Below are positions 726 through 21,956 of a stretch of DNA of 57,319 bases, in pieces. A program made the translations under genes and the position numbers. Where the stretch lies: assembly GCF_000455245.1 (NCBI RefSeq), contig NZ_HG005170.1:1-57319 (forward strand). The letters are read 5' to 3'. The stretch comes from Nesterenkonia massiliensis (lineage in GTDB: Bacteria; Actinomycetota; Actinomycetes; Actinomycetales; Micrococcaceae). The notes under the pieces are model-generated. The model had not been told where the DNA came from. It did no database searches and saw only the letters and a program-made list of their open reading frames with translations. Positions within the stretch are counted from its first letter, which is position 1. Every line of letters begins with the position of its first letter.

Positions 726-3212
726 ATGAATGAAGTACAGACGCTGCTGAAACCTCGGCTGCTTCAGCAGTATTTGGACAACGCGGGATCATTCGGTGTC
801 GGCCTTGAGCGCACGGCGCTTCGCAGCGAATCTCTGCAGATGCGCGAATTGTTAGCGTTTGCATCAACACATGGCACGCTCACGTGGGAGCGACTCAAAG
901 TCCAGGTCCTCCAGCGCGCGGTTTCAGCACATTCCCTAGACCTGCAATGGCTAGGCCGCCTCGCCCATACGGTAGCGCTGCAGAATGTCCGGGCGAGCGA
1001 CACCGACTTCGCCATCGAAGCATTTACCTTGCTCAACTCCGTAGCAGAGCAGGGAGACAAACCTCGGCGCTTCAACAAACTGTTGGCCGAGCTGCTCTTC
1101 GAAGAAGGGCGCCTCGAAGAGCTGGACGCGCTGATTCTGCAGTACCCGGACATCAAGTCCCATTACTTCAGCTACATCGCAGTGGATTCACGGAGCCCTT
1201 TCATCAGAGGTGACGGGACGGCTCGGGAGTATGATCGATGGCTCGAAGGGTTTAACCGTCAGTTCATTCGCAACGGGTTGACTCCAGTGTTCTTAAACTC
1301 AAGTGAGGGCACCCCGTTCAACCGTCTCGACAGTCTTCCTGAACACGGACCTCAGCTTCCTGGACCGCTGGTCACCGTCATCATGACCAGCTTCAAGCCT
1401 GTGCGTGAGGACATTCTCCTCTCGGCGCGCTCGATACTGAAGCAGACTTGGAAGAACATTGAGCTGCTTATCGTGGATGACGCATCGCCAGCGGACTCGG
1501 CGCCGGTGCTAGACGAGCTTGAAGCACTGGATGACCGGGTGCGGGTAATTCGGTTGGAAGTCAACGGTGGAACCTACGCCGCTCGCAATGTGGGCATCTC
1601 CCAAGCGCGCGGTGAATTCATCACGGGACAGGACGCCGATGACTGGTCACACCCCCAGAGAATCGAAACCCAGGTCAACCACCTGCTACGTAACCCACAG
1701 AGACCCGGCAACCAGGTCTATACAGTCAACATGACGGAAGACTTGGTGCGTATCCGGCGCGGATACTTCCCCTTCATACCGAGCGCGCCGACGCTGATGG
1801 TCAGGACACCCATCATGCGCGAGCTCGGCGGTTACCTCCCCGCGCGAAAAGCCGCCGACAATGAGATGCGAGATCGTATCTCGGCTCTAGCCGGCACGGA
1901 TGTCTATCAAATCTCAGATCCACTGATCTTCATGCGCATCCTCCCGGATTCCCTCTCGCGATCTGACTTCCGGGCGGGCTGGCAGCACCCAGCCCGCAGG
2001 GCGTTCTGGAGCAGCTACAAGACTTGGCACGCACGCGCGAAGCCGGCTGAACTTCGTCGCGCCGCAGGTCAGGCGAGTCCTATCTACATTCCGCCTAGAT
2101 TCACATCGCCTCCAGATAGCCCGCAGACTCTCGATGCGGTATTCGTAGCTGACTGGTGCGAGCTAGGAGAAACCCAAGAGCTCGCCCTGGAAGAAATCCG
2201 GCGTCTGCTCAAGGATGGTCGCCGAGTGGGGGTCATGCACATGGAGAACGCCCTTCACCTTTCGGAATACTCGCGTACTTTCATAGCCCCGGTGCAAGAA
2301 CTCATCTCGCAGGGGAAAGTCGCGTCCGTTCTCGCCGATGAGGACTTCTACAGGGTTCACCTTGTGTTGGTAAGGAACCCACAGCTTCTAGAGTTCGTGC
2401 CGGACGGAAGCGTCGCTTTTGACGTAGGGACTGTGGCAGTCATCGCGGGGAAGAAACCCTGGGACTCAGCGGACTTCCAGGTGCACTATGTACCTAAGGA
2501 CTGCGCCACCAACGCCCAGGTCTTCTTCGGAGTACGTCCCACATGGATCGCTCAGTCATCTGACGTGCTCTCGGAGCTCAAAGGCTTTGTAGAGCCGGAC
2601 GAGTTACTGGAGCAGCTCCACGTCACCAGGGTTAACGCAGCTCAGTGGAAGGTCCGCAGAACTCGTCACCGTAATACCCGCCCCGTCATCGGACGCTGGG
2701 CGGGAGATCGCGAAGTCCTGTGGCCGGACTCGCCTGAAACCATTGAGCAGATCTATCCCACCGACGGCTCTGCAGATGTTCGCCTCTACGGTGACCCGTC
2801 CTCGGCTCTTCGTGCTTTAGGTTCCGCGCGTCTGCCAGCGTCCTGGCTGAGCTTCAGGCAGCACGAAATCAGTAGGCGCACTTACTACCGGTCGGTGGAC
2901 TTCTTCGTGCACTTTGACCGGGGTTCGGAGGCGCCGGACGTCAGTCTCGCGGTCCTCGAAGCCTTGGCTTCCGGATGCATCGTCGTCCTTCCTCCGGCGT
3001 ACCTCCCCATCTACGGGGATGCCGCCGTGTACGCCGACGCTCACGACGTAAGAAGCACCGTGAATTTCTATATGGAACGGCCGTCAGAATACCTCCGTCA
3101 ATCGCAGCAAGGTATAGAGTTTGCGAGCACTTACGGGGCCCATGTTTCGGATGACCCCGTCCAGCAACTGCTACGCCACGCTGACCACGCCTCGGAGGTA
3201 TTATCCCGGTGA
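726..3212 (+). CDS. Family 2 glycosyltransferase with GT-B-like C-terminus
   Basis: An 828-residue protein. A GT2 (GT-A fold) domain spans about residues 212-400. It opens with VTVIMTSFKP, carries the nucleotide-binding VDDAS motif, and has DADDW near residue 303 as the metal-binding DxD-type site. The first 200 residues are helical-looking and unrecognised. Near residue 738 the C-terminus has SLAVLEALASGCIVVLP, which resembles the donor-binding end of GT4 (GT-B) enzymes, so two glycosyltransferase types may be joined. No signal peptide or membrane segment is seen, so it should act in the cytoplasm on a nascent surface glycan. The start ATG follows GGAG. The stop overlaps the next start by 4 bp, which indicates co-translation. 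Donor and acceptor sugars cannot be told from sequence. Confidence 0.85.
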   Translation: MNEVQTLLKPRLLQQYLDNAGSFGVGLERTALRSESLQMRELLAFASTHGTLTWERLKVQVLQRAVSAHSLDLQWLGRLAHTVALQNVRASDTDFAIEAFTLLNSVAEQGDKPRRFNKLLAELLFEEGRLEELDALILQYPDIKSHYFSYIAVDSRSPFIRGDGTAREYDRWLEGFNRQFIRNGLTPVFLNSSEGTPFNRLDSLPEHGPQLPGPLVTVIMTSFKPVREDILLSARSILKQTWKNIELLIVDDASPADSAPVLDELEALDDRVRVIRLEVNGGTYAARNVGISQARGEFITGQDADDWSHPQRIETQVNHLLRNPQRPGNQVYTVNMTEDLVRIRRGYFPFIPSAPTLMVRTPIMRELGGYLPARKAADNEMRDRISALAGTDVYQISDPLIFMRILPDSLSRSDFRAGWQHPARRAFWSSYKTWHARAKPAELRRAAGQASPIYIPPRFTSPPDSPQTLDAVFVADWCELGETQELALEEIRRLLKDGRRVGVMHMENALHLSEYSRTFIAPVQELISQGKVASVLADEDFYRVHLVLVRNPQLLEFVPDGSVAFDVGTVAVIAGKKPWDSADFQVHYVPKDCATNAQVFFGVRPTWIAQSSDVLSELKGFVEPDELLEQLHVTRVNAAQWKVRRTRHRNTRPVIGRWAGDREVLWPDSPETIEQIYPTDGSADVRLYGDPSSALRALGSARLPASWLSFRQHEISRRTYYRSVDFFVHFDRGSEAPDVSLAVLEALASGCIVVLPPAYLPIYGDAAVYADAHDVRSTVNFYMERPSEYLRQSQQGIEFASTYGAHVSDDPVQQLLRHADHASEVLSR

Positions 3213-3625: not shown

Positions 3626-3709
3626 AGCCAGACCTACTTAACTGTGCCCTTTGGGCGTTTAGCTCGTTCAATACCCTGCCGTTTCGATTTGTCAGAAGTG
3701 GGAGAACCC

Positions 3710-4984
3710 ATGCAGTTCATCGGACATACACGCTTCAGCGTGTACTCCTATCAGTCGGATAAGTTTGCCGCCACCCGCGGCAAGTCAGATGAAAAGAGCT
3801 ACCGGAACTGGTTGTACGCTCCTGAGCGGATGGCCCCCCGGACTGAGATCTTCATCAACGAGTCACTTCCGCAGATCCAGCGCGCCATGGGTGAGACCCA
3901 CCAAGTCGCCCATGTGGTCTGCTACTCCCCTTCACTGCCCGACGAGTACCTCAGCGCTCTCCAGAATGCAGAGCACAAATACGAGTTCTTGCATCTGTAT
4001 GAGGTCAACTCAGCCGTCAGCGGCACCGCTCCGCCAGTCGAAGCGATTCGTGCGGTTGCGGGGTGGACTGATGGCCAGACTCAGCGTTTGGGGATCTACC
4101 GTTTGGATGACGATGACCTGATCGCTGAGGACTATTTCGACCGGATGGCTCGCTACGGTGCCGCGGCCGAACCCGGCTGGCGCGTATCCCTGGGATATGG
4201 GTTCTCTGCCATACGGTCCAAGGGAGAGTACTACTTTGCTCGGCGCGACTATCACCCCATGGCCAGCGTGGGCATGATGTCTGTTGCTCAGCTCAACCCC
4301 GAAGGAGAGCTGGAAGGCCTTCACGACACCGCACACCAGTACAGCGATACCGGCGGCCCCGTCATCGTCGATTCCGAGCATCCCGGATTCTTCCGCACAC
4401 GGCACTCAGGCCAGGACAACATTCTGGCCAAGTACAAAGGCCAAGATTTCCTCTCCGCTGCCGTAGCAGAAATGCGCCGCTGGCAGCCACAGGACGTCAA
4501 AGACGTCGTCGCCAAATTCCCCATACTGCAGGGCAGAGTGCACAAAGCCCTCACGCCAGTGGATTCGGCGGTCAACCTGGTTGACTCACCCATTGAACTA
4601 AGCGCGGAGCCCACGCGCTTCAACGCACCATTCCAGGACGGGTGCGTCCTGGTCATGGAACTCGAAGGACGATTCGAGAAGGGACAGGTCAAAGTCCGCT
4701 ACTCCGTGAGCGCCGATGAGGGACAGGACGTGGCTGATAAAGCCACCCGCGAGTACTTCTCGGCGCAGCTGGTGGACTACGACCAGGAGTCCGGGTACTT
4801 CGAACCTGTTGCCACCAACGAACGAGGCCCGAAACGGCACCTGGTCATCAGATGCCCAGAGGGACTCCGGTTGGAAGAAGTCGCGGTGATATCGAAGCGG
4901 AAGAAAAATCCCGTGATCCTCAAAGAACTCAGCGTCCGCCCGCTTCTGGACACTGACGCCTCCGCTGAGACGGCTGTCAGCTAG
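3710..4984 (+). CDS. Putative rhamnosyltransferase-like glycosyltransferase (PF11316 type)
   Basis: A 424-residue protein. The ATG at 3710 is preferred over an in-frame GTG at 3644 because GGGAG lies just upstream and the typical N-terminus FIGHTRFSVYSY begins directly after it. An acidic cluster in RLDDDDLI (about residues 133-136) followed by a Phe-rich segment fits the metal and nucleotide site of GT-A enzymes and matches the pattern of the putative rhamnosyltransferase family PF11316. The C-terminal 100 residues look beta-rich and unassigned. It lies in the glycopolymer locus downstream of the GT2 and membrane protein. Its stop codon overlaps that of the minus-strand GT2 that converges on it. 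The transferred sugar is not determinable here. Confidence 0.75.
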   Translation: MQFIGHTRFSVYSYQSDKFAATRGKSDEKSYRNWLYAPERMAPRTEIFINESLPQIQRAMGETHQVAHVVCYSPSLPDEYLSALQNAEHKYEFLHLYEVNSAVSGTAPPVEAIRAVAGWTDGQTQRLGIYRLDDDDLIAEDYFDRMARYGAAAEPGWRVSLGYGFSAIRSKGEYYFARRDYHPMASVGMMSVAQLNPEGELEGLHDTAHQYSDTGGPVIVDSEHPGFFRTRHSGQDNILAKYKGQDFLSAAVAEMRRWQPQDVKDVVAKFPILQGRVHKALTPVDSAVNLVDSPIELSAEPTRFNAPFQDGCVLVMELEGRFEKGQVKVRYSVSADEGQDVADKATREYFSAQLVDYDQESGYFEPVATNERGPKRHLVIRCPEGLRLEEVAVISKRKKNPVILKELSVRPLLDTDASAETAVS

Positions 4985-6126
4985 CTGGTCAGCGAGTCGC
5001 CACCGCCGCGCGCGGCAGACGCCGCCTGGCGCACAGTATCCTCCTCAGCAGAGTCCAGGGCGGCCAAGAACTGCTGCGCCTCAGGAACTAGGCGGGTTCG
5101 GGAGGTCTGGGCACCATAGAGCTCAGACAGCGCTTTGGCCTGGCTCGCTAGGTCCAGAATGGCGCGGTCTTGGGATTCTCTCTTGCGCAGCACCAGTACT
5201 GGGATGTGCAGCTTCAGCAGTCGGTTCCAATAGTCCGCCCGCATCCGCCCAGCCCGCTGCGCGAGCTCTCCACCTTGGCCACGCGCCAGAGCCATCAGTC
5301 CAAAACAGTCATGAATGAACTGCAGCTGCTGGTGCGCCGGAACCTCAGCCCGAGACACATGCACTCGGTGCTGCGAGTCCGGTTCTTCCAGGGTGATGAA
5401 GTAGCAGTCCACGTCCTCTACCAGGGCGACCTTGTCCGCGTAGAGAAACGCGGCCACCATGAACGGGTGGTCACTGGCGTAGATCAGCGACTCATTGAAG
5501 CGGTAGGGCAGCCTGCGCGCGAAATCTGTCCGGAAGAGCTTCTGCACGTGCAGGCTGTTCAGCCAGCCGGCGTGGTAGCCCTTCACTTTAGGGTCCTTAG
5601 GGGGCAAGACGTTCGGCGCTGAACGGTTCACGCCCACGTACCGGCCCACCACCAGATCGGCAGATGTCTCACGGGCCTGCGCCACCATGCTGTTCAGCGC
5701 CTGGTCGCCGAGGTAATCATCGGCGTCAAGGAAGAAGACAAACTCGCCCCGGGCGGCGTCGAGGATAGTGTTCCTGCCCTTCGACGGGCTACCCGTTCCG
5801 CGGTGGCGGGCCACGGTGAACCCGGCCCAGTCTGCGCTGTCCTTATAGGCGCTGGCGGTCTTCACCGTGGCATCAGTGGATCCGTCATCCACCACCAGCA
5901 CTTCAATATAGGAAGTCCCCAGGCTCTGGGCGGCGACGCTCTCTAGGCAGCGGCCTACTCGCTGCGCATCCTGGTGCGTGGTGATCCCTACGGTGACGAT
6001 GGGGACGGCGGTGCCACTGGCTGGATTGGGCGAGGGGATGCGAGGGTTTGCCTGGGGTTGCCGCTTTCGCGGCGTACCTGTGCGCAGGATCCGCCTAGTG
6101 GCTTTCTGCAGGAAGCTGCGCGGCAT
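4981..6126 (-). CDS. Family 2 glycosyltransferase
   Basis: A 381-residue cytoplasmic enzyme. A basic, proline-rich N-terminus (about 40 residues) precedes a classic GT2 domain: VPIVTVGITTHQD from residue 41, VVDDGSTDAT near 79, and DADDY at 134-138 as the DxD site after GRNTILDAARGEF. The rest is the usual helical acceptor region. The ATG is preceded by AGGAGAGG at a good distance. The gene runs opposite to its neighbours: it converges with the PF11316-like gene, sharing stop-codon bases, and diverges from the TupA-like genes. It most likely adds one residue of the surface polymer, with unknown specificity. Confidence 0.88.
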   Translation of the reverse strand: MPRSFLQKATRRILRTGTPRKRQPQANPRIPSPNPASGTAVPIVTVGITTHQDAQRVGRCLESVAAQSLGTSYIEVLVVDDGSTDATVKTASAYKDSADWAGFTVARHRGTGSPSKGRNTILDAARGEFVFFLDADDYLGDQALNSMVAQARETSADLVVGRYVGVNRSAPNVLPPKDPKVKGYHAGWLNSLHVQKLFRTDFARRLPYRFNESLIYASDHPFMVAAFLYADKVALVEDVDCYFITLEEPDSQHRVHVSRAEVPAHQQLQFIHDCFGLMALARGQGGELAQRAGRMRADYWNRLLKLHIPVLVLRKRESQDRAILDLASQAKALSELYGAQTSRTRLVPEAQQFLAALDSAEEDTVRQAASAARGGGDSLTS

Positions 6127-6364: not shown

Positions 6365-7537
6365 ATGGATCCCGCAGTGGCTAGACCTCAACGTAGACGT
6401 GACTCGCCTTTTATGAAGTTCACCACTGCGGAGTACTACAACCGTGGCACCAAGCTGCGACGGGACCTCACGAATAAGACTTTCGTGCACCAGCTGCTGC
6501 GGGACAAGACCCTGGGTGGCCAGCACATAGGTCTCCCTACTCAGCACGCCATCCTCACCTCGCCGGAACAGATCACTGATGAAGTTCTCGGCGAGCGAGT
6601 TGCTCTGAAATTCGCCCATGGCTGGTCCGCAAAGGGTGTGATGCTCTTAGAGCGCATCGGCGAGCACCAGTACTTCGACCACATGAGCTTGCGTGAGCGC
6701 AGCTTGGACAATATTCGCCGCTCACAGCAGGCGATTCTGGCGAAGTTCCCCAAGAAGAAGGCAGCTTGGATTGTGGAGGACTTCCTGCAGGGAGCCCAGC
6801 CCGGCGGGGTGCCCTACGACTACAAGTTCTATATGTTCCAAGATCAGATAGGCGTGGTGGCCCAGATTGACCGTAATTCATCCCCGCTGCGAGCAGTGAT
6901 GCTCGATGGAAACCTCAAGCCCCTCACGCTGGGGCGGGATTACTGGACAGGACGCAATGACACCCAGCTGACGGTCCCGCTGGTACCGCGTTCGGCTGTC
7001 ATGCTCTCCCGCTGGGCCATCGAGCTGGCAAAGATGACCGACGCGCCTTTCTCCCGCATAGACCTCTACGACACTGTGGACGGCCCATACTTCGGCGAGT
7101 TCACCTTCTCCACCGGCGCGGAGATCAAAGGACGCGTCACCTACAGTCGAGCTATCGATGACCATCTCGACGAGCTCTTCAATGAGGCCCAACGGGAACT
7201 CAACGGGGAGACCGTGACCCCGCGGGATACCTTCAGCACAGCTCTCCAGACTCTTGAGCCTGAGGTCATCGCGGCCCAACCGGTGATGGACCTCCAGCAG
7301 TACCAGCGCTACGCCTATTACCTGCACAATCAGGGTAGCCTGGGTGGCTACCGCCTGGCTCAAGCCCAACAGGCACTGGTGGAACATGGCGCGGAGGAGA
7401 CCATCAACCGTTACGTGGTGGATGCCCACCATGCCGCCCGACGCAGCGCCCGCAGACTGGGCGCGCCTCCCAGCAACCGCGTGACCCAGCAGGCCAAGCG
7501 GGTCTACCGCAAAGTCTCCAAGCTGTTGCCCGTCTAA
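6365..7537 (+). CDS. TupA-like ATP-grasp protein, copy 1
   Basis: A 390-residue protein of the TupA-like ATP-grasp family (PF14305), named after a teichuronic acid locus gene and common in surface polysaccharide clusters. Visible family features are the LRDKTLGG segment near residue 44, ALKFAHGWSAKG as an ATP-grasp lysine and loop region, WIVEDFL, DYKFYMF, and the late acidic metal site RIDLYDT followed by FGEFTF. Members are thought to form amide or ester-type links using ATP, but the substrate is unknown. The start at 6365 lacks a clear ribosome binding site; it is kept because its first 20 residues align with those of the next gene. It is followed after 17 nt by a close paralogue, so the pair arose by tandem duplication. 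Confidence 0.82.
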   Translation: MDPAVARPQRRRDSPFMKFTTAEYYNRGTKLRRDLTNKTFVHQLLRDKTLGGQHIGLPTQHAILTSPEQITDEVLGERVALKFAHGWSAKGVMLLERIGEHQYFDHMSLRERSLDNIRRSQQAILAKFPKKKAAWIVEDFLQGAQPGGVPYDYKFYMFQDQIGVVAQIDRNSSPLRAVMLDGNLKPLTLGRDYWTGRNDTQLTVPLVPRSAVMLSRWAIELAKMTDAPFSRIDLYDTVDGPYFGEFTFSTGAEIKGRVTYSRAIDDHLDELFNEAQRELNGETVTPRDTFSTALQTLEPEVIAAQPVMDLQQYQRYAYYLHNQGSLGGYRLAQAQQALVEHGAEETINRYVVDAHHAARRSARRLGAPPSNRVTQQAKRVYRKVSKLLPV

Positions 7538-7554: not shown

Positions 7555-8760
7555 ATGCCACCAGCGACGCGCCCGCGTGCCAAAAAGTCACCCTTCCTAC
7601 AGTTCACCGCTGCGGAATTCCGCCAACGCGGCACCAGGTTGCGTCAGCAGCTCTCGGATAAGACCTATGTCCAAGAGCTACTCAGAGACAAGACCCTGGG
7701 CGGGACCACCATCGGTCTGCCCAAGCAGTACGCCAAGCTGACCTCACCGGAGCAGATCACCCCAGAGATCCTGGGGGAGCGGACCGCGCTGAAATTCGCA
7801 CACGGTTGGTCCGCCAAGGGGGTCATGCTGCTGGAGAAACTCGGCGAGAACCGGTACTTCGACCATATGGCCATGCGGGAATGCACCCTGGAGCGCATCC
7901 GGGAGAAGCAGCAGGCTGTGGCAGCGGCGTTCGGAAGGAAGAACCCGGTCTGGATTGTGGAAGAGTTCCTCCGCGGAGCTCAGCCAGGGGAGGTGCCCTT
8001 TGACTACAAGTTCTATATGTTCCAGGGGCAGATTGCCATGGTCGCCCAGATTGACCGCAACTCTTCTCCGCCGAAGATGATCAAGCTCAAAGGCAATCTC
8101 ACACCCTTTACGCCGGGAAAGGACTATTGGGCTAAGCCTAAGGACCTTCAGCCCGCGGTGCCGGTGGTGCCCCGTTCAGCTGTGATGCTCTCGCGCTGGG
8201 CGATCGAACTGTCCACCATGACAGATGCCCCCTTTGTGCGGGTAGACCTTTATGACACGGTGGATGGCCCCTACTTCGGGGAATTCACCTTCTCCTCCGG
8301 CGCGGAGTTCAAAGGCACCGTCACCTACAGCCCAAAGATGCTTAACCGGTTCGACCAGCTCTTCGGTGACGCCCAGCGCCGCCTCGACGGTGAGGAGACG
8401 GACCTGCCGGCAGGTTGGAGCACCCTGCTGCAGTCCCTTGACCCGCAGGTTCTCGCTGAGCACCCGCAGATTCCGCTGCCGGAATATGAACGCTTCAGCT
8501 ACCTGCTGCACAATCACGGAAGCGTGGGTGCGCGACGCCTGGCAGAAGCCCAGAAGGACCTGCTTCACGGTGCCGAGGACGACGCCACCGCGCGCCGCAT
8601 CAACCGGTACCTCACGCAGGCGCATAAAGCCGCCGGGCTACGCGCAGTAGAGCAGCAGAAGAAGCTCGGGTCCACAGACTCGCAAGCGCTGAAGATGGGC
8701 CGAAAAGTGTACAAGAAGGCAGCATCGCGCATTGGAGCCCCAAGAGGACCCAAGTCCTAG
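7555..8760 (+). CDS. TupA-like ATP-grasp protein, copy 2
   Basis: A 401-residue paralogue of the preceding gene, near-identical over its motifs: LRDKTLGG, ALKFAHGWSAKG, WIVEEFL, DYKFYMF, RVDLYDT and FGEFTF. All the residues expected to bind ATP and metal are kept in both copies, so neither looks like a decaying duplicate. Differences concentrate in the C-terminal third, which may set acceptor choice. AGGAGAAG lies about 9 nt before the ATG. Two working copies next to each other suggest two similar ligation steps in one glycopolymer, which is an inference. Confidence 0.82.
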   Translation: MPPATRPRAKKSPFLQFTAAEFRQRGTRLRQQLSDKTYVQELLRDKTLGGTTIGLPKQYAKLTSPEQITPEILGERTALKFAHGWSAKGVMLLEKLGENRYFDHMAMRECTLERIREKQQAVAAAFGRKNPVWIVEEFLRGAQPGEVPFDYKFYMFQGQIAMVAQIDRNSSPPKMIKLKGNLTPFTPGKDYWAKPKDLQPAVPVVPRSAVMLSRWAIELSTMTDAPFVRVDLYDTVDGPYFGEFTFSSGAEFKGTVTYSPKMLNRFDQLFGDAQRRLDGEETDLPAGWSTLLQSLDPQVLAEHPQIPLPEYERFSYLLHNHGSVGARRLAEAQKDLLHGAEDDATARRINRYLTQAHKAAGLRAVEQQKKLGSTDSQALKMGRKVYKKAASRIGAPRGPKS

Positions 8761-8813: not shown

Positions 8814-10814
8814 ATGCTTAAGTCACTCGCCCTAGGCGCCGAAGCCGCCCGCCGGGCCGTTCACACCCTGGCCAAAGTCCCCGGAGCGGACACCGCCCTG
8901 GCGCGTGCCATCGTCTTTACCGGTCGCGCGGTGCCCTCCGCCGCCGAAGCTGACTTCACCGGGGAGGACCGGCCGCTACGGCGGCTGCACTCCCAAGCAG
9001 CCAGCCTGGTCTTCGAAGCCAACGGCAGCGGCGCCCAGCGACTGCTGCAGCGCCTGGATATCTCCACCATCAAGGACGCGGACTACCTTGAGCGCCTAGC
9101 CGCCCGCTACCACCGGATCCACCGCTACGACGCCGCCCTGGCCATGCGCCAGCGCGCCGCCCAGCTGGACTCAGAGAACCCAGTGCGGCATCTGGCCCTG
9201 GGCAGGGCCCTGCAGCGGGCCAGCAGCTCCGGACTCATGCGTGATCCCATCGCCGGGCTGACCACAGGCCCCCAGCCGCGCACCGAGGAAGCCCGCCAGG
9301 CCCTGCACCGGGCAGCCGAACTAGCACCGGAGAACCCCGCCATCCTGCACGAACTGGGACGGCTGGAGTTCGACCACGGCGACCTCGATCGCGGACTGGA
9401 ACTGCTTGAGCAAGCGGTCTCCCAACGGCCCAACGCAGTGTGGCACGTCGATGCGGCCAAACGCTTCCGCAAACCCCACGTGCTGCAGCTTGAGAAGGCC
9501 CTTGAGCACTACGAAAAAGCTCTGGCCCTGGACCCAGGTCAGGACCAAACCTTCCGGCATGTGATCACCATCGGCTGCCGCGCCGTCAGCGACTGGCCCA
9601 GGCTCTGGCGCAGCGCAGAGCTCTACGAAGGCCACCGCAGCCGACGCGCCAAGGCGCACATCAAGAGCCAGCGCCGTGCGGCGATGGACCAACTGGCGCC
9701 CCTGTTCACAACGGAACTCGCGGCCGGTGGAGCCATCAGCGCGGCTGAAGCCCGTTCCGCAGTCCAGACCCTGCAGCAGGCCGAGGCCGCCGGCCACCGG
9801 CTCTCTTGGCCCACCACGCTGCTCATCAGCTACCGGCTGCAGTTCGCCGGGCACCTAGGCCTGGGCTTCGAAATCCGCCAGCGGCTGGCCGAACGCAGCC
9901 TCGCGTGGCTGGGCACCACCTCCGGCGGTCACATTGGGCACCGGCAGAAACTTCTGGCGGCCCTGGTGTACCTGGACCGGCTAGAGGAGGCGCAGCGGCT
10001 CATCGACCCCGCCCCTTGGCCGCCGCAGACTGATCTGGCCGCCCAACAGCTGCAGAAGCTCGCCGCCGATGTGCAGCTCACCCGTGGCAACCACCGGCCC
10101 TATCTTGAGTACTCCGCGCAGCAGCGTGCCCGTATCCCACTGCCGGTGGATGACACCATGGAATCCCTGGTCCGAGGCAAACGAGTGGCGATCGTGGGAC
10201 CAGTGGACACCGGAGACCAACTGGGAGAGCTGATCGATGGCCACGACGTCGTCGTGCGTCCCCGCTTTGCCCTGGACTTCGTGGCCCAGCACACGAAGTC
10301 CCAGGGCAGCCGCACGGACATCGTCTACATCAACGGACAAGACATCGACCCACTGTTGCCGCAGCTGGACGCCGCGGTGGAGAGCGGCAATCTCCAGCTC
10401 GCCGTGGCACGGCCGATCAGCCTGCAGCAGCACCTGGACCGGCAGCTGCCCTGGCTGCGGTTCTACCGGCAGGACTACGCGCTGAACTTCCACGGCGCGC
10501 CCTTGGGTGTGCAGCGGTTTATCTACGACATCCTGCAGTTCGAACCAGCGGAGATCGCCGTGTTCAACAGCGATATGTACACCGGACTGGATCCCTTCGC
10601 CGCGGGCTATCGTGAGGCCAAGGACACCTCCTACGGGCCGGGCTCCATCATGAACGACCTGATCGTCCTCCATGACCTGCTCTTCGACTTCAAGTACCTG
10701 CAGGGCCTGCAGGCCACCGGCATCATCACCCTGCACGGGCGCAGTGCCGAGGTGGGCGCGCTGACCCCGGAGGAGTACGTCCACGCCATCGAAACCGGCG
10801 GTGCGCTCAGATGA
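8814..10814 (+). CDS. TPR-like protein with GT29 sialyltransferase-like C-terminal domain, copy 1
   Basis: A 666-residue protein. Residues 60-300 contain helical repeats of TPR type, for example AALAMRQRAAQLDSENP, RAAELAPENP and YEKALALDPGQ. From about residue 454 a second domain begins with RVAIVGPVDTGDQLGELID then HDVVVRPRF. This resembles the sialyl-L motif of GT29 sialyltransferases (VVGN, then ID-HD-V-R-N), which binds the CMP-sugar donor. It continues with SRTDIVYIN and ends with a segment containing MNDL and HD, roughly where GT29 enzymes have their S and VS motifs. I infer a CMP-sugar-dependent transferase. Support comes from the CMP-sugar synthetase gene two genes downstream. No signal or membrane segment is seen. 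The alternative is an unrelated Rossmann-like domain. Confidence 0.65.
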   Translation: MLKSLALGAEAARRAVHTLAKVPGADTALARAIVFTGRAVPSAAEADFTGEDRPLRRLHSQAASLVFEANGSGAQRLLQRLDISTIKDADYLERLAARYHRIHRYDAALAMRQRAAQLDSENPVRHLALGRALQRASSSGLMRDPIAGLTTGPQPRTEEARQALHRAAELAPENPAILHELGRLEFDHGDLDRGLELLEQAVSQRPNAVWHVDAAKRFRKPHVLQLEKALEHYEKALALDPGQDQTFRHVITIGCRAVSDWPRLWRSAELYEGHRSRRAKAHIKSQRRAAMDQLAPLFTTELAAGGAISAAEARSAVQTLQQAEAAGHRLSWPTTLLISYRLQFAGHLGLGFEIRQRLAERSLAWLGTTSGGHIGHRQKLLAALVYLDRLEEAQRLIDPAPWPPQTDLAAQQLQKLAADVQLTRGNHRPYLEYSAQQRARIPLPVDDTMESLVRGKRVAIVGPVDTGDQLGELIDGHDVVVRPRFALDFVAQHTKSQGSRTDIVYINGQDIDPLLPQLDAAVESGNLQLAVARPISLQQHLDRQLPWLRFYRQDYALNFHGAPLGVQRFIYDILQFEPAEIAVFNSDMYTGLDPFAAGYREAKDTSYGPGSIMNDLIVLHDLLFDFKYLQGLQATGIITLHGRSAEVGALTPEEYVHAIETGGALR

Positions 10815-10815
10815 T

Positions 10816-10875
10816 GGGCACTGCGGTCATGAGCACTGTGGTGACGAACGCTCCGGTGACGGGAGCTGAACGCTG
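10816..10875. repeat. Degenerate 15-bp tandem repeat, about 4 units
   Basis: Units start at 10816, 10831, 10846 and 10861, with shared GCACTG and GGTGAC blocks. The array fills the whole gap between the stop codon of copy 1 and the start of copy 2 of the TPR/GT29-like pair. Confidence 0.55.
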
Positions 10876-12609
10876 ATGGCGGTGAACCTGCATCATCTGC
10901 GGCTGAAGATCGCCGCGGCTGCCATGGTCAAAGGGATTGCCTGGCGGGCCACTCGGCTGCCCGGACCGGCAGGCACCGCTGCTGCACACGCGCTGACCCG
11001 AGCCTCCACCCGGCTGACCCCTGAGGGCGAGGCCACCGGCTCCTACCGAGGACTGCTGGCGGGACTGCTGCAGGACGCGCTGCGCGACCACCACACCGAC
11101 GACGACGCCGCAGCGGTCAGCTACGACCCCGTGGCGGGATTGGTGCCTGCGGCTGGCGCCGAGCCAGTCCCGGACCTGCCGCTGCTGCGCCAGCGAGCAG
11201 AGCAGGACCCCAGGGCCGGAAACCTGCTGGCACTGGCCGCGGCCCACCGGAAGTCCTATATCGCTGAGTTCGAGGCATCCGCGGAGTTCTATGAGCGGGC
11301 CTTCGCCGCCAACCCGAAGGACCTGCGCGCCATCGAGGGGATCTTAAGCTCCGGGGCCCGTTCGCACTTCGACTTCGCGCGCATCTGGACGTACGTACAC
11401 ACCCTGAGGCCCACGAAAGGCACGCTCAGCGGTGCCGACTTCTGGGACCCGGTGGAACAGCTTTTCGCAGCCGACCCCAGTACAACCGACTCCAGTACAG
11501 CCCAACCCACTGCCGCGCAGATTGAGGCGGCAGAAGCGGTCCTCGCCGCGCATGAGCAGGACCTGCCGGATCTGCACCAGCTGCTGCTGGAGGCCCTGGC
11601 GGTGCGTCTGCAGTTCTTAGGCGCATTCCTCACCGGCACGATGATCCGCCGAGCCATGGCGCAGAACCGGGTCAACGAACTGCGCGGCATCCCGCTGGAA
11701 TCAGCGCTGTGGGTCAAGCACCTGATGGGCGCCTACGCCTACCTCGAGCAGGACCAGCGGCTGGAGAGGATTGCGGCAAAACCCCCAGTGGACCGCCCGC
11801 ACAAGCTTGCTCACCAGCAGGTGGACAAGCTGCGGGCAGATGCCGCGCTCTGGACCGGTGATGCTGCCCCGCTGCAGGAACTGAGCCTTCAACGCGCGGC
11901 TGAGCTTGAGCTGCCGGGGGAGCAGCGGATGCGCCAGCTGGTGCTGGGCCGCCGGGTCGCCGTGGTCGGTCCCGCCGCCACCGCCGAAGAGGTAGGGGAA
12001 CTCATCGACGCCCACGACGTCGTCGTCCGTCCCCGTTTCACCCCGGAGTACGTCCAGACAGAGCGGGTGCGGATCGGTTCCCGCACGGATATCGCTTACT
12101 ACTCAGGACTGGATCTCACGCGCGGTTGGGAGCAGATCGAACGCTCCGCGCTCAACGGGGACTTTCAGCTCGCGGTCACCCGTCCGCTCTACTGGCCGGT
12201 GCTGGCACAGCAGCAGCTCCCCCCGCAGTGGCTTCGCGCCGCGAGGTTCGAATTCGGCCTCTACTTTCGCGGTGCCCCGCTGGGGCTGCAGAGGATCCTC
12301 TACGACCTGTTGCAGTTTGCTCCGGCCGAGCTCTCACTGTTCCACGCTGACTTCTACGCCAGCCCCCACGTACTGCGCCCCGGCTACCGTGCTGCCGACT
12401 CCAGCGTGTTCGGTCCGCACTCACCCATGAATGACCCTGTGGTGATGCATGACCTCAGCTTCGAGTTCCGCTTCACCCAGCGGCTGGTGCGCAGCGGACT
12501 GGTCACCGCCCACGGCACTGCCGGTGAGGTGCTGACGCTCAGCGAAGCGCAGTATCTGGAGCGTCTGGAGCAGCTGAGCCCGCTGGGGCGGCGCGTTGGA
12601 CGCTCCTGA
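10876..12609 (+). CDS. TPR-like protein with GT29 sialyltransferase-like C-terminal domain, copy 2
   Basis: A 577-residue paralogue of the preceding gene. The N-terminal helical region is shorter and more diverged. The C-terminal domain starts near residue 356 with RVAVVGPAATAEEVGELID and HDVVVRPRF, then GSRTDIAYYSG, FRGAPLGLQRILYDLLQF and a late MNDPVVMHDLSFEF. The conserved blocks are the same ones kept in copy 1, so they probably form the active site. The fit to GT29 sialyltransferases is by motif layout only. Both copies sit just upstream of a NeuA-like CMP-sugar synthetase. Together they may transfer two nonulosonate residues or act on two acceptors. GGGAG precedes the ATG at a long spacing. 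Confidence 0.65.
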   Translation: MAVNLHHLRLKIAAAAMVKGIAWRATRLPGPAGTAAAHALTRASTRLTPEGEATGSYRGLLAGLLQDALRDHHTDDDAAAVSYDPVAGLVPAAGAEPVPDLPLLRQRAEQDPRAGNLLALAAAHRKSYIAEFEASAEFYERAFAANPKDLRAIEGILSSGARSHFDFARIWTYVHTLRPTKGTLSGADFWDPVEQLFAADPSTTDSSTAQPTAAQIEAAEAVLAAHEQDLPDLHQLLLEALAVRLQFLGAFLTGTMIRRAMAQNRVNELRGIPLESALWVKHLMGAYAYLEQDQRLERIAAKPPVDRPHKLAHQQVDKLRADAALWTGDAAPLQELSLQRAAELELPGEQRMRQLVLGRRVAVVGPAATAEEVGELIDAHDVVVRPRFTPEYVQTERVRIGSRTDIAYYSGLDLTRGWEQIERSALNGDFQLAVTRPLYWPVLAQQQLPPQWLRAARFEFGLYFRGAPLGLQRILYDLLQFAPAELSLFHADFYASPHVLRPGYRAADSSVFGPHSPMNDPVVMHDLSFEFRFTQRLVRSGLVTAHGTAGEVLTLSEAQYLERLEQLSPLGRRVGRS

Positions 12610-12691
12610 AACCCGTCCCTGGAGCCCCTCTGCGAGCCCTCTCCGCGGGCACCTCCGTGAACCCCCTCACTCACCCCTAGCACCGGCTAGG

Positions 12692-12697
12692 TAGACT
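12692..12697 (+). promoter_or_regulatory. -10-like hexamer of a near-leaderless start
   Basis: TAGACT lies 8 nt before the GTG at 12706, with no ribosome binding site between them. It is the same hexamer and almost the same distance as at 8799-8804, so the two genes may share promoter type. Confidence 0.4.
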
Positions 12698-12705
12698 CAG
12701 CTGCT

Positions 12706-13449
12706 GTGAGCAGCTCAATCCTGAAACCCGTAGATACCGATCAGATCACCGTCGTCGTGCCGGCGCGGGCCGGCAGTGAGCGGGTGAAGAATAAGAACAC
12801 TCGCCGTTTCGCCTCCTATGAGGGCGGCCTGCTGGAGCTGAAGCTCAAACAGCTGACCCGGACTGAAGAGGTTGATCGGATCATCGTCTCCTCCAATGAC
12901 CCGGTGGTGCTGGACTACACCGCACGCTTTGCCGAAGATCAGGGCGATGAGCGGATCCAAGCGCTTCCGCGCCCCGACGAGCTGGGCCGGTCCTCCACCC
13001 CCATGAGTGTGTTCATCGATTACGTGGCGCAGCTCCAGGAGACCGGCACCATGATGATGACCCACGTGACCCACCCCTTCATCGGGTCCCAGTACTTCTC
13101 CGAACTGGTCAGTGCATGGCGCGAAGCCGCCGACGCCGGCCACGACAGTCTGCTCTCCGTCACCAAGCTACAGACTTTCCTCTGGGATGAGAACGGCCCG
13201 GTCAACTATGACCCGACCGACGAGAAATGGCCACGCAGCCAGGACATCAAGCCGCTGTTCGAGATCAACCACGGCGCTTACCTGATTCCCTTCCGCGTGA
13301 TGCGCGAAGTGGGTGACCGGGTAGGTGAACACCCGAAGATGTACGAGCTGCCCGAGAACGTCGTGCTAGACATCGACTGGGAAGACCAGTTCACGCTGCT
13401 CCAAGACATCGCCGAGGCCAAAGAGTTCCGCGGCATCAGCATTCTCTAG
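12706..13449 (+). CDS. Acylneuraminate (nonulosonate) cytidylyltransferase-like CMP-sugar synthetase
   Basis: A 247-residue cytoplasmic enzyme of the NeuA/KdsB-like cytidylyltransferase family, expected to make CMP-sugar from CTP and a sialic-acid-like sugar. The N-terminal CTP-binding signature VVPARAGSERVKNKN starts at about residue 17. Further family blocks are VSSNDP, a THPF segment in place of the common TSPL, WPRSQDIKPLFEINHGAY near residue 180, and a terminal DIDWEDQF that supplies the second acidic metal ligand. The length is normal for the family. The start is a GTG with no ribosome binding site. No nonulosonate synthase (NeuB) is present in the window, so the exact sugar (Neu5Ac, Kdn, legionaminate or other) is unknown. 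The next gene follows after 13 nt. Confidence 0.82.
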   Translation: MSSSILKPVDTDQITVVVPARAGSERVKNKNTRRFASYEGGLLELKLKQLTRTEEVDRIIVSSNDPVVLDYTARFAEDQGDERIQALPRPDELGRSSTPMSVFIDYVAQLQETGTMMMTHVTHPFIGSQYFSELVSAWREAADAGHDSLLSVTKLQTFLWDENGPVNYDPTDEKWPRSQDIKPLFEINHGAYLIPFRVMREVGDRVGEHPKMYELPENVVLDIDWEDQFTLLQDIAEAKEFRGISIL

Positions 13450-13462
13450 GGGGAGCAGCACC

Positions 13463-14215
13463 ATGATTCGAGTCATCTGCGTCCGCCACGGCGAGACCGA
13501 ATGGAATAAGACCCACCGCCTACAGGGGCAGTCCGAGGTGGCGCTGGCTGAATCCGGTCTTGCCCAAGCTCGAGCCGCCGGGCTCTACGTACGCGGTCAG
13601 CATCCCAGCGCGGGTTACGTCTCACCGCTGAAGCGCACCCATGCCACGTTCGATCAGTTCGGGCTCGGGTTCGCGCCGGTGGAGCTACCTGGGCTTATTG
13701 AGCAGAATCTCGGCGACTGGGAGGGCATGAAGACCGCCGCAGCCAAGACCGAGTACGCCGAGCTGTACAAGTCGTGGAAGAAGGGCGAAGGGACCCCACC
13801 CTCAGGGGAGGAGCCCAGCGCCGTCGTCGAACGCATGGTGAAAGCATTCTGCGGTATCATCCGCGGCGCGGCCGACCTGGAGCCCACACCCTGCGTGGAC
13901 ACTGACTATGACCTGCGCACGGTGGTGGTGGTCTCCCACGGGACCTCCACCAAGGCCCTGCTGGAGGGGCTGGGACTCATCGACCGGTCTCACGTGATCT
14001 CTTTGACGGCTGCTGCCATCTCGGTCATCGACGTTCCTCTGCATGGGGGCCCGCTCTCCAGCTCACTGCCCAAAGGTGGAGTGGAGATCGACGGCGGGGC
14101 GGCTGCGGAGGCTGAAGTGATTCGCGGACTCAGCGACGAACAGATTCGCGCCTACGCAAAACTGCGGATGTACAACCTCTCCCCAGAGGTGCTGGCTGCC
14201 GTACTGTCTGCATAG
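13463..14215 (+). CDS. Histidine phosphatase family protein
   Basis: A 250-residue member of the phosphoglycerate-mutase-like histidine phosphatases. The catalytic RHGETEW is at about residues 8-14, an RTHATF block supplies the second arginine, and VVSHGT near residue 156 supplies the second histidine. GGGGAG precedes the ATG. It lies 13 nt after the CMP-sugar synthetase gene, so it is probably co-transcribed. One attractive role is removal of phosphate from a nonulosonate 9-phosphate before CMP activation; this is inference from position only. The family is promiscuous, so alpha-ribazole or sugar phosphatase activity is equally possible. Confidence 0.85.
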   Translation: MIRVICVRHGETEWNKTHRLQGQSEVALAESGLAQARAAGLYVRGQHPSAGYVSPLKRTHATFDQFGLGFAPVELPGLIEQNLGDWEGMKTAAAKTEYAELYKSWKKGEGTPPSGEEPSAVVERMVKAFCGIIRGAADLEPTPCVDTDYDLRTVVVVSHGTSTKALLEGLGLIDRSHVISLTAAAISVIDVPLHGGPLSSSLPKGGVEIDGGAAAEAEVIRGLSDEQIRAYAKLRMYNLSPEVLAAVLSA

Positions 14216-20817: not shown

Positions 20818-20897
20818 CGTCAGCGCCCTCGTAGAGCGTATTGCGCGCCAGGAGCCGTCCAGGGAGCTTTTCAGGGGCCGCGTGTACTCTGACCCTG

Positions 20898-21956
20898 ATG
20901 TCTGAAGAGCTCCTCACCGAAGAAGCCCCTCCTAAATCCAGCCGACGCCGGCGCATCACGCTGATCGTGCTCAGTTCAGCCCTGGTGCTCCTGATCGCTG
21001 GTGTCACCGCTGCTGCCCTCTATCTGAACTCTTTGCGCGGCGCCTACGAGACCTCCGTCAATGTGCTCCCGGAAGAAGAGACCTTCCCCGAGGAGAGCGA
21101 ACGTCCTGAGCGTCCTGCCCGGGTGGAGGACGACGGCAAGCTGGTCGATGATGAACAGGTCAACATCCTGCTGTTGGGCTCTGATGCTGGCGGCGGCTCC
21201 GGGGAGACCGAGAACGTTCCCTGGCTGCCCAATGCCGGACGCGCCGACACCATCATGTGGGTCCACATCCCGCACGAGCGTGACTCCATCCAGGTTATGT
21301 CCATCATGCGTGATACCTGGGTGCCGATCCCGGGCCACGGTGAGGCCAAGATCAACTCATCCTTCTCCTTTGGCGGTCCTGGCACCGCAGTGGCCGCCGT
21401 GGAGAACCTCTTCGATGTCCGAATCGACCACGTGGCCGCGGTGGACATGCAGGGCTTCCAGGGGCTGGTCAGTGCCATGGGAGGAGTCACCGTGGACTCT
21501 CCGGTGGCCTTCACCTCCCGGGACGGCTACCAGTTCAACCAGGGTCCGCAATCGATGGACTCCACTGCGGCGATGAGCTTTGTGCGCGAGCGCCGTGCCT
21601 TCGACGGCGGGGACTACCAGCGTGTAGCCAATCAGCAGGCCTTTGTGCGCGGAGTCCTCAACGAGGTGCTCACCCCCTCCACCCTGACCAATCCAGTGAC
21701 CCTGCACAATATGGTCTCCAACTTCGCGCCCTATATGACAGTAGATGCGGGGCTGCAGGACGCTGATCTCATCGCTGATCTGGGATGGTCGCTGCGGAAC
21801 GTGCGTGGCGGCGATATCCAGATGTTCACCCTGCCCAACCACGGCGTAGGTCAGGCCGGCAGCGAATCCATCATTGTTCCTGACTATGACGCCATGGCCG
21901 CTGCTGGACAGGCCATGCGCGAGGGCAGTTTCAGCGAGTACGCCACCAGTCACTGA
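20898..21956 (+). CDS. LytR-CpsA-Psr (LCP) family glycopolymer ligase
   Basis: A 352-residue membrane-anchored protein. A basic RRRR precedes one transmembrane helix at about residues 22-44; the rest is outside. The LCP domain starts with QVNILLLGSDAGGG and contains RADTIMWVHIP, SIMRDTWVPIP, KINSSFSFGG and MGGVTVDSPV, which carry the Asp and Arg residues that bind the pyrophosphate of the lipid-linked donor and Mg2+. These enzymes transfer wall teichoic acids or other glycopolymers from lipid carriers to peptidoglycan. The ATG at 20898 was chosen because a membrane anchor follows normally and a TACTCT hexamer lies 7 nt upstream. It is divergent from the TagD pair and probably attaches the polymer made here. 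Confidence 0.9.
   Translation: MSEELLTEEAPPKSSRRRRITLIVLSSALVLLIAGVTAAALYLNSLRGAYETSVNVLPEEETFPEESERPERPARVEDDGKLVDDEQVNILLLGSDAGGGSGETENVPWLPNAGRADTIMWVHIPHERDSIQVMSIMRDTWVPIPGHGEAKINSSFSFGGPGTAVAAVENLFDVRIDHVAAVDMQGFQGLVSAMGGVTVDSPVAFTSRDGYQFNQGPQSMDSTAAMSFVRERRAFDGGDYQRVANQQAFVRGVLNEVLTPSTLTNPVTLHNMVSNFAPYMTVDAGLQDADLIADLGWSLRNVRGGDIQMFTLPNHGVGQAGSESIIVPDYDAMAAAGQAMREGSFSEYATSH

Follow-up and report, generated by a model that had tools for sequence, protein, structure and literature searches.

Sialyltransferases of CAZy family GT29 (Pfam Glyco_transf_29, PF00777) are also bacterial: according to Petit et al. (2018, PMC5811610), they occur in alpha-, gamma- and epsilon-Proteobacteria and in one archaeon, with neither a transmembrane domain nor conserved cysteines, and the eukaryotic enzymes would have a proteobacterial origin, a view repeated in a 2023 review (PMC10225777). 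The words "actinobacter" and "gram-positive" do not occur in the main text of the 2018 paper, and we found nothing on GT29 proteins that are Gram-positive or fused to tetratricopeptide repeats (TPR) among the open-access papers listed. In Caulobacter, FlmG, a protein with an N-terminal TPR part and a C-terminal nonulosonate transferase domain resembling the GT-B superfamily, puts pseudaminate on flagellin and needs NeuB and a cytidylyltransferase-like gene (PMC7591256). Furthermore, Streptomyces carries teichulosonic acids, wall polymers with Kdn and galactose (PMC7831098, PMC11481543). Here, we analyze a stretch of DNA from Nesterenkonia massiliensis, bases 1-57319 of the 132868-base contig 6 (G000:C6) of its 2.67-Mb genome (hereafter, the window); the genus inhabits saline soils, salt lakes and other environments (PMC8875376). 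Two tandem proteins of this window, P0001 and P0002, carry C-terminal domains that resemble GT29 sialyltransferases and are encoded beside a cytidylyltransferase, P0003, and a histidine phosphatase, P0004 (Table 1).

Both C-terminal domains belong to a genuine but remote branch of the GT29/GT42 superfamily of sialyltransferases, and P0001 and P0002 are probably transferases of a 3-deoxy-ulosonate activated with cytidine monophosphate (CMP), most likely a nonulosonate such as Kdn, with a probable location in the cytoplasm. They resemble the GT29 enzymes ST8SiaIII, ST3Gal1, ST6Gal1 and ST6GalNAc2 in predicted fold, L-type motif, a conserved histidine in VS-like order and a link to CMP-ulosonate genes. 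They differ from them by a score below the Pfam cut-off, a degenerate motif S, no visible HYY triad, a TPR or other N-terminal part and a Gram-positive host. With the proteins of Petit et al. (PMC5811610), they share a bacterial host and a relationship to GT29; the first-pass annotation of this stretch had presented GT29 as mainly an animal family, which that report of proteobacterial members corrects. As in FlmG (PMC7591256), TPR precede a C-terminal transferase-type domain in P0001, but the fold predicted for this domain is that of sialyltransferases (GT29/GT42) and not GT-B. TPR were annotated in fusion with GT29 in both copies; they are found in P0001, whereas the N-terminal part of P0002 has no Pfam match at E 1. 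Streptomyces teichulosonic acids offer another parallel, as actinobacterial wall polymers bearing a nonulosonate (PMC7831098, PMC11481543).

Table 1. Features of the window, with the locus first and its context below
Feature	Position	Strand	Evidence and remarks
P0001 (copy 1, GTA), 666 aa: N-terminal TPR region and C-terminal GT29-like domain (about residues 432-666)	8814..10814	+	Open reading frame, Pfam, model, Foldseek
P0001 GT29-like domain	10107..10811	+	Alignments, conservation, profile searches
P0002 (copy 2, GTB), 577 aa: C-terminal GT29-like domain	10876..12609	+	Open reading frame, Pfam, alignment
P0002 GT29-like domain	11881..12570	+	Alignment, conservation
P0003, 247 aa, NeuA/PseF-type CMP-ulosonate cytidylyltransferase (CTP_transf_3)	12706..13449	+	PF02348 2.4e-7
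P0004, 250 aa, histidine phosphatase (branch 1)	13463..14215	+	PF00300 1.5e-38
GT2-domain protein with weak GT1-like C-terminal matches (context)	726..3212	+	PF00535 4.6e-25, PF13524 0.0033
Rhamno_transf family protein (context)	3644..4984	+	PF11316 5.3e-14
GT2 glycosyltransferase (context)	4981..6126	-	PF00535 1e-25; near the pair in several relatives too
TupA-like ATP-grasp protein (context; presumed tie to the pair)	6365..7537	+	PF14305 9.7e-12
TupA-like ATP-grasp protein, second copy (context)	7555..8760	+	PF14305 9.2e-12; near the pair in several relatives too
LytR-CpsA-Psr (LCP) protein, candidate wall-glycopolymer ligase (context)	20841..21956	+	PF03816 2.4e-40

GT29-like domains of P0001 and P0002

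The four open reading frames of the locus lie as first annotated. The C-terminal domains of P0001 and P0002 are 44% identical. Three sequence blocks had been assigned to both copies: ELID and HDVVVRPRF are indeed common to them, as is GSRTDI, but the third, VVGP, reads AIVGP in copy 1. In P0001, the L-type motif extends from residue 456 (KRVAIVGP) to GSRTDIVY at residue 498 and the S-type region starts at residue 562; in P0002, the L-type motif begins at residue 359, with GSRTDIAY at residue 401. Alignment positions V30, G40, I43, D44, D47, G67 and D71 are invariant in all 37 rows of the family alignment, and a VS-type histidine, in a motif order like that of GT29, is kept in 36 of them (H620 in P0001, H525 in P0002). 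The catalytic histidine of GT29 lies in sialylmotif VS (PMC10225777); H620 and H525 are putative counterparts. By eye, the P0001 domain has no cysteine, and no transmembrane anchor was noticed, two further differences from the GT29 enzymes named above; the bacterial proteins of Petit et al. likewise have no transmembrane domain or conserved cysteines.

Relatives were collected from genome contigs (29 loci, from Nesterenkonia, one of them listed as Garicola, Demequina, Proteobacteria, a delta-proteobacterial and a poribacterial metagenome-assembled genome) and from viral contigs. The profile of the domain matches 78 viral metagenome contig loci (L091-L168). The wide family profile holds 37 sequences, eight of them viral, and a variant without viral rows holds 29. 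Against the PDB, the 37-sequence profile retrieved ST3Gal1 (2.9e-8), ST6Gal1 (9.6e-8), ST8Sia3 (8.6e-6) and ST6GalNAc2 (1.9e-3), followed by a match at 0.66; all eight distinct sequences at E <0.01 are GT29, and the L-type motif is aligned to ST3Gal1, ST6Gal1 and ST8Sia3. The 29-sequence profile likewise has GT29 for its best seven distinct chains (2.2e-5 to 1.2e-3; next 0.04). With P0001 alone as phmmer query, PDB matches were confined to the TPR region, bar one stray.

Glyco_transf_29 is the sole Pfam match besides TPR, at E 0.26 (11.1 bits) for P0001, 0.21 (11.4 bits) for P0002 and 0.062 (13.1 bits) for the isolated copy-1 domain. Within the genus, seven of the 28 members reach a match at E 1, the best of them at 8.1e-4, as do all ten distant relatives scanned at E <=0.072, and the four viral-contig relatives scanned exceed the gathering cut-off of 23 bits (L097, 32.0; L101, 27.6; L103, 23.6; L108, 36.1 bits). 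A chance resemblance of motifs was rejected, since this sole match is to Glyco_transf_29 and the profile of 37 relatives finds GT29 structures.

An AlphaFold2 model of the copy-1 domain, run with the 37-row alignment, reached a pLDDT of 89.9 and a pTM of 0.90. In a Foldseek search of the PDB with this model, ranks 1-25 are GT29, led by human ST8SiaIII (2.3e-7). The GT42 enzyme CstII enters at rank 26 (2.7e-4), thus GT42 is not the best structural match. Ranks 1-42 are all sialyltransferases, including 9c08 from Pasteurella multocida, whose family is unstated in its row, and rank 43 is a dehydrogenase. Among viral models, the top match is a mimivirid GT29 protein (5.6e-7). The domain is therefore predicted to have a GT29 fold, and the structure prediction that the first-pass annotation had proposed as a check supports, for copy 1, its assignment to a GT29-like type.

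In a tree of 36 domains, the six copy-2 rows form one group (99/97) separate from copy 1, a pattern compatible with an ancient duplication inside the genus; with long branches and a midpoint root, the deeper branching order of this tree is unsafe. In N. pannonica (L083, G016:C1:955862-958191), frameshifts break up both GT29-like copies, through either decay or sequencing error; this genome is listed as 62% complete.

Synthetase, phosphatase and NeuB genes accompanying the pair

P0003 scores above the PF02348 cut-off (31.2 vs 22.6 bits). It matches the PseF model at 1.3e-11 (44.6 bits), below the NCBIfam equivalog cut-off of 205.7 bits, and so falls in the same group as PseF rather than being a certified PseF. 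The KdsB-type model matches far more weakly (0.0056); the Kdo-only match that the first-pass annotation had named as speaking against it was thus not what we found. Among solved structures, P0003 matches PpNeuA (6e-8). A NeuA-like synthetase and a histidine phosphatase beside the pair, as annotated, are both confirmed.

The distribution of these genes was followed in 30 Nesterenkonia genomes, part of a set of 147 searched with the P0001 domain, the other 117 being from other genera. GT29-like genes were found in 20 of the 30 and in none of the 117. All 20 positive genomes have two copies with match starts within about 3 kb (as frameshifted pieces in G016). P0003 has a match in 17 of the 30 genomes, all 17 pair-positive, the best matches being 59-82% identical, its own copy aside. 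G004, G013 and G016, the pair-positive genomes that lack it, carry a PF02348 gene that we read as KdsB-like from its likeness to Demequina genes. P0004 has some match in every genus genome, and copies with an identity of 65% or more occur in exactly the 17 genomes that have P0003. We rejected P0004 as a mere housekeeping neighbour: most genus genomes have a second copy elsewhere, 43-53% identical, but the closer copy accompanies P0003 in all 17. P0004 is a locus-linked paralogue of a gene found in most of the genus.

Furthermore, NeuB is present in 19 of the 20 pair-positive genomes and in none of the 10 pair-negative ones (Fisher p 3.7e-7, treating genomes as unrelated). A CMP-ulosonate synthetase, taken by reading of the rows as a PF02348 match other than the GlmU pattern, is found in 20/20 and 0/10, respectively. 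Among the pair-negative genomes, G003, G020, G021 and G025 have no PF02348 match and the others show the GlmU pattern (a partial match in a long frame); GlmU was identified by reading in N. massiliensis and from the match pattern in other genomes. In G001, G002, G019 and G026, a NeuB fusion, a GT29-like gene and a synthetase lie side by side. These four genomes also have two PF02348 matches, the second P0003-like, within a single frame of 520-557 aa. The protein read out from G019 (L046:12091-13731) joins a KdsB-like (by reading) and a NeuA-like domain, hence two CMP-sugar synthetases in one protein.

The window has no NeuB, as annotated. The neuB search proposed beyond it was rewarded: a PF03102 search of the genome gave one NeuB, scoring over the threshold, at 501558-502304 of contig 2, and this gene tracks the pair in the genus. 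It lies about 13 kb from the contig end, where an open reading frame reads as a transposase. The NeuB frame is a fusion with an N-terminal domain of about 240 aa (G000:C2:500766-502337; L003 709-2280, with a presumed start) and overlaps an inositol-monophosphatase-like (IMPase-like) gene. The fused domain (GKGPSAD...VIGINDAERI) has no Pfam match and its profile has no PDB match at E 10. Of the 396 genomes of our phylum sample, only that of N. massiliensis itself has it; it is also present in those loci of Nesterenkonia and Demequina that we read. Its AlphaFold2 model (pLDDT 49.2, from five sequences) is too poor to classify, and a likeness to GT42/DUF115 is an unconfirmed impression from its sequence. 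Match starts of NeuB and an additional GT29-like copy are 2.1 kb apart in G001 and G026 and 3.7 kb apart in G002 and G019; NeuB is 20 kb from the pair in G013 and 22 kb in G022. In N. massiliensis, this distance would be about 24 kb if contig 2 joins contig 6 directly.

Relatives outside Nesterenkonia

Both Demequina loci show the same gene order on one strand: an IMPase-like gene, the NeuB fusion, a KdsB-like synthetase and, with an extended N-terminal part, a GT29-like protein. An extra gene separates NeuB from the synthetase in L068, and L071 contains a second KdsB-like gene. On the other strand of the Demequina oxidasica locus (L068:14535-16635), there is a second ulosonate route, with its own NeuB and with a synthetase of PseF type that is joined to a domain like KdsC or Kdn-9-phosphatase.

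In Pseudomonas cuatrocienegasensis (L088), the gene order is pseB, an unknown gene, pseC, pseF, pseG, a neuD-like gene, an open reading frame, a fabH-like gene, pseI, a short open reading frame and the GT29-like gene. PseB, PseC, PseF, PseG and PseI exceed their cut-offs, and PseH was not identified. This block is flanked by FlgK and a Flagellin_N protein (taken for FlgL) on one side and by flagellin (named FliC from its sequence), FliD and FliS on the other; the L087 locus is nearly identical. The gene context in Pseudomonas points to the transfer of a CMP-activated nonulosonate by the GT29-like homologue. The GT29-like gene of P. cuatrocienegasensis (L088, L192, L193) is a candidate flagellin pseudaminate transferase that is not of the FlmG type.

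Moreover, NeuB is found in nine of the ten non-genus genomes with the domain, and L085 has two NeuB-type and two PseF-type genes within 7 kb of its GT29-like gene. In the phylum sample, the domain occurs in three of the 396 genomes, N. massiliensis included; NeuB lies 3.4 kb from it in G256, and in G454 the distance is 5 kb. The latter genome, from the same order, encodes an 817-aa protein (L191:7035-9488) that combines a GT29 domain above the Pfam cut-off (44.5 bits) with a GT1-type domain. Among distant relatives, TPR are matched in L084.

Proposed function and alternative explanations

Predicted fold, conserved motifs, co-occurrence with NeuB and synthetases, and linkage describe a coherent ulosonate-transfer module, whose activity is predicted. 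In the route that we infer, including its order, an unusual synthase of the NeuB type, from the gene on contig 2, would condense a sugar, or sugar phosphate, with phosphoenolpyruvate. The phosphate would be removed by the IMPase-like enzyme whose gene overlaps neuB, or by P0004, and P0003 would then produce the CMP-sugar. The GT29-like domain of P0001 or P0002 would transfer the sugar by inversion, with the VS-type histidine (H620 or H525) as base, onto an acceptor that the N-terminal part may select. The link to NeuB and the lack of a KdsA match favour a nonulosonate donor, the first-pass proposal: the KdsA model TIGR01362 has no match in ten genomes searched (eight Nesterenkonia, including N. 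massiliensis, and two Demequina), whereas it did detect KdsA in a control. The KdsB-like synthetases that replace the NeuA-like enzyme in some relatives would fit an octulosonate, a less probable donor. As for the acceptor, our guess is slightly in favour of a wall glycopolymer built by the neighbouring GT2, TupA-like and LCP genes, because these look like polymer assembly, with protein close behind.

Several observations weigh against ulosonate transfer by GT29-like enzymes. P0001, P0002 and the isolated copy-1 domain all stay below the PF00777 gathering cut-off. Sialylmotif S is only partly kept, as a G-containing block before a conserved helix in the genus that sequence searches leave unaligned, and no motif III HYY triad was seen by eye before H620 in the alignments. 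For these three reasons, we call the domain GT29-like rather than a member of PF00777. The stretches aligned by the profiles to PDB entries cover the L-motif region only. A genus-only profile, indecisive alone, ranked the ABC transporter DppD (0.018) ahead of ST6Gal1 (0.029), an ambiguity that disappeared once the profile was widened beyond the genus. In Foldseek, GT29 and CstII both reach TM-scores near 0.5, and the E-value of ST3Gal1 (2.0e-4) is much like that of CstII. Furthermore, NeuB was not found in the pair-positive genome G029, and Methylobrevis albus (L089) has the domain and no NeuB. The relative in G256, near an Epimerase_2 gene, has no Pfam match at E 0.01. NeuB matches, many of them weak and partial, occur in 221 of the 396 phylum genomes; since NeuB is so common, its mere presence says little, and the argument is carried by proximity and by co-occurrence within the genus. 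The KdsB-like synthetases of Demequina and, by reading, of G004, G013 and G016 make the donor ambiguous. Finally, we found no report of enzyme activity for any member in the open-access literature.

The alternative that survives best is protein O-glycosylation, in which the N-terminal part would bind a surface protein and the GT29-like domain would add an ulosonate to it, in the manner of FlmG; we hold it to be a substantial possibility, short of being the expected outcome. The Pseudomonas homologue within a pseudaminate block of a flagellar cluster and the FlmG precedent of TPR-guided nonulosonate transfer to protein (PMC7591256) both support transfer to protein, as do the TPR matches in P0001 and L084. 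Conversely, TPR are not matched in P0002, L085, L086 and L089 and only weakly (0.07) in L088, no acceptor protein was identified near the pair, and its window neighbours resemble polymer assembly. Tentatively, the combination of a GT29-like domain with TPR or another N-terminal part that binds the acceptor may even define a third kind of nonulosonate transferase in bacteria, next to Maf/DUF115 and FlmG (GT-B). Its direct targets would be proteins, namely flagellin in Pseudomonas and proteins of the surface or bound to the wall in the Gram-positive Nesterenkonia and Demequina.

It is unlikely that the donor is CMP-Kdo or another octulosonate, in which case the term nonulosonate would be wrong. 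Such a donor would fit the KdsB-like synthetases that are present in both Demequina loci and that, by reading, replace P0003 in three Nesterenkonia genomes, as well as the proposal that plant GT29-like proteins are Kdo/Kdh transferases (PMC5811610). Against it stand the PseF/NeuA-like character of P0003 itself, the nature of the linked synthase, which is a NeuB, and the ten genomes in which KdsA was not found. For this last reason, a Kdo-only locus was rejected; a Kdo donor is kept as a rival given the KdsB-like genes.

It is improbable that the domain is related to GT42/DUF115 (MptE/Maf-like), or is a non-transferase sharing this fold, and has a role unconnected to ulosonates. CstII, itself a CMP-sialic-acid transferase, has a related fold with equal TM-scores, an archaeal HPPK matches at 1.1e-2 and MptE-like phage proteins appear at 2e-3 among viral models in Foldseek. 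However, the best GT29 E-value is three orders better than the best one for GT42, sequence profiles match nothing but GT29 at E <0.01, and the domain is tied in genomes to NeuB and synthetases. Lastly, a chance neighbourhood, with the pair a wall-locus protein unconnected to the synthetase, would account for the absence of NeuB from the window and for the three pair-positive genomes lacking both P0003 and the close P0004 copy, but it is very improbable given the KdsB-like gene in those same three genomes, the NeuB counts within the genus and the gene order in Demequina and Pseudomonas.

Neighbouring genes

The upstream side of the window ends at an assembly break, since the window starts at base 1 of its contig. 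Downstream of the locus, at 14410-16227, lies a GmrSD_C protein with two similar halves and, by eye, a signal-peptide-like start. Many of the compared loci have a homologue of it beside their GT29-like genes, and it may be a secreted partner or acceptor.

Biological significance

The Nesterenkonia pair is a Gram-positive, TPR-fused variant within a little-described GT29-like branch. We found no account of Nesterenkonia wall chemistry concerning ulosonates in the open-access literature; with CMP-ulosonate transfer as the preferred reading, the surface of these bacteria is probably decorated with a sialic-acid-like sugar, and the locus predicts an undescribed ulosonate-bearing surface in the genus. 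If true, this would extend GT29-type sialyltransferases to Gram-positive bacteria and add a new architecture to them. It also bears on the origin of the eukaryotic sialyltransferases, traced by Petit et al. to Proteobacteria (PMC5811610). Moreover, the pair gives GT29-type enzymes a clear gene context, and the Pseudomonas flagellar locus makes their function directly testable. A third kind of transferase acting on proteins, if true, would mean that bacterial proteins are sialylated by cousins of the animal sialyltransferases.

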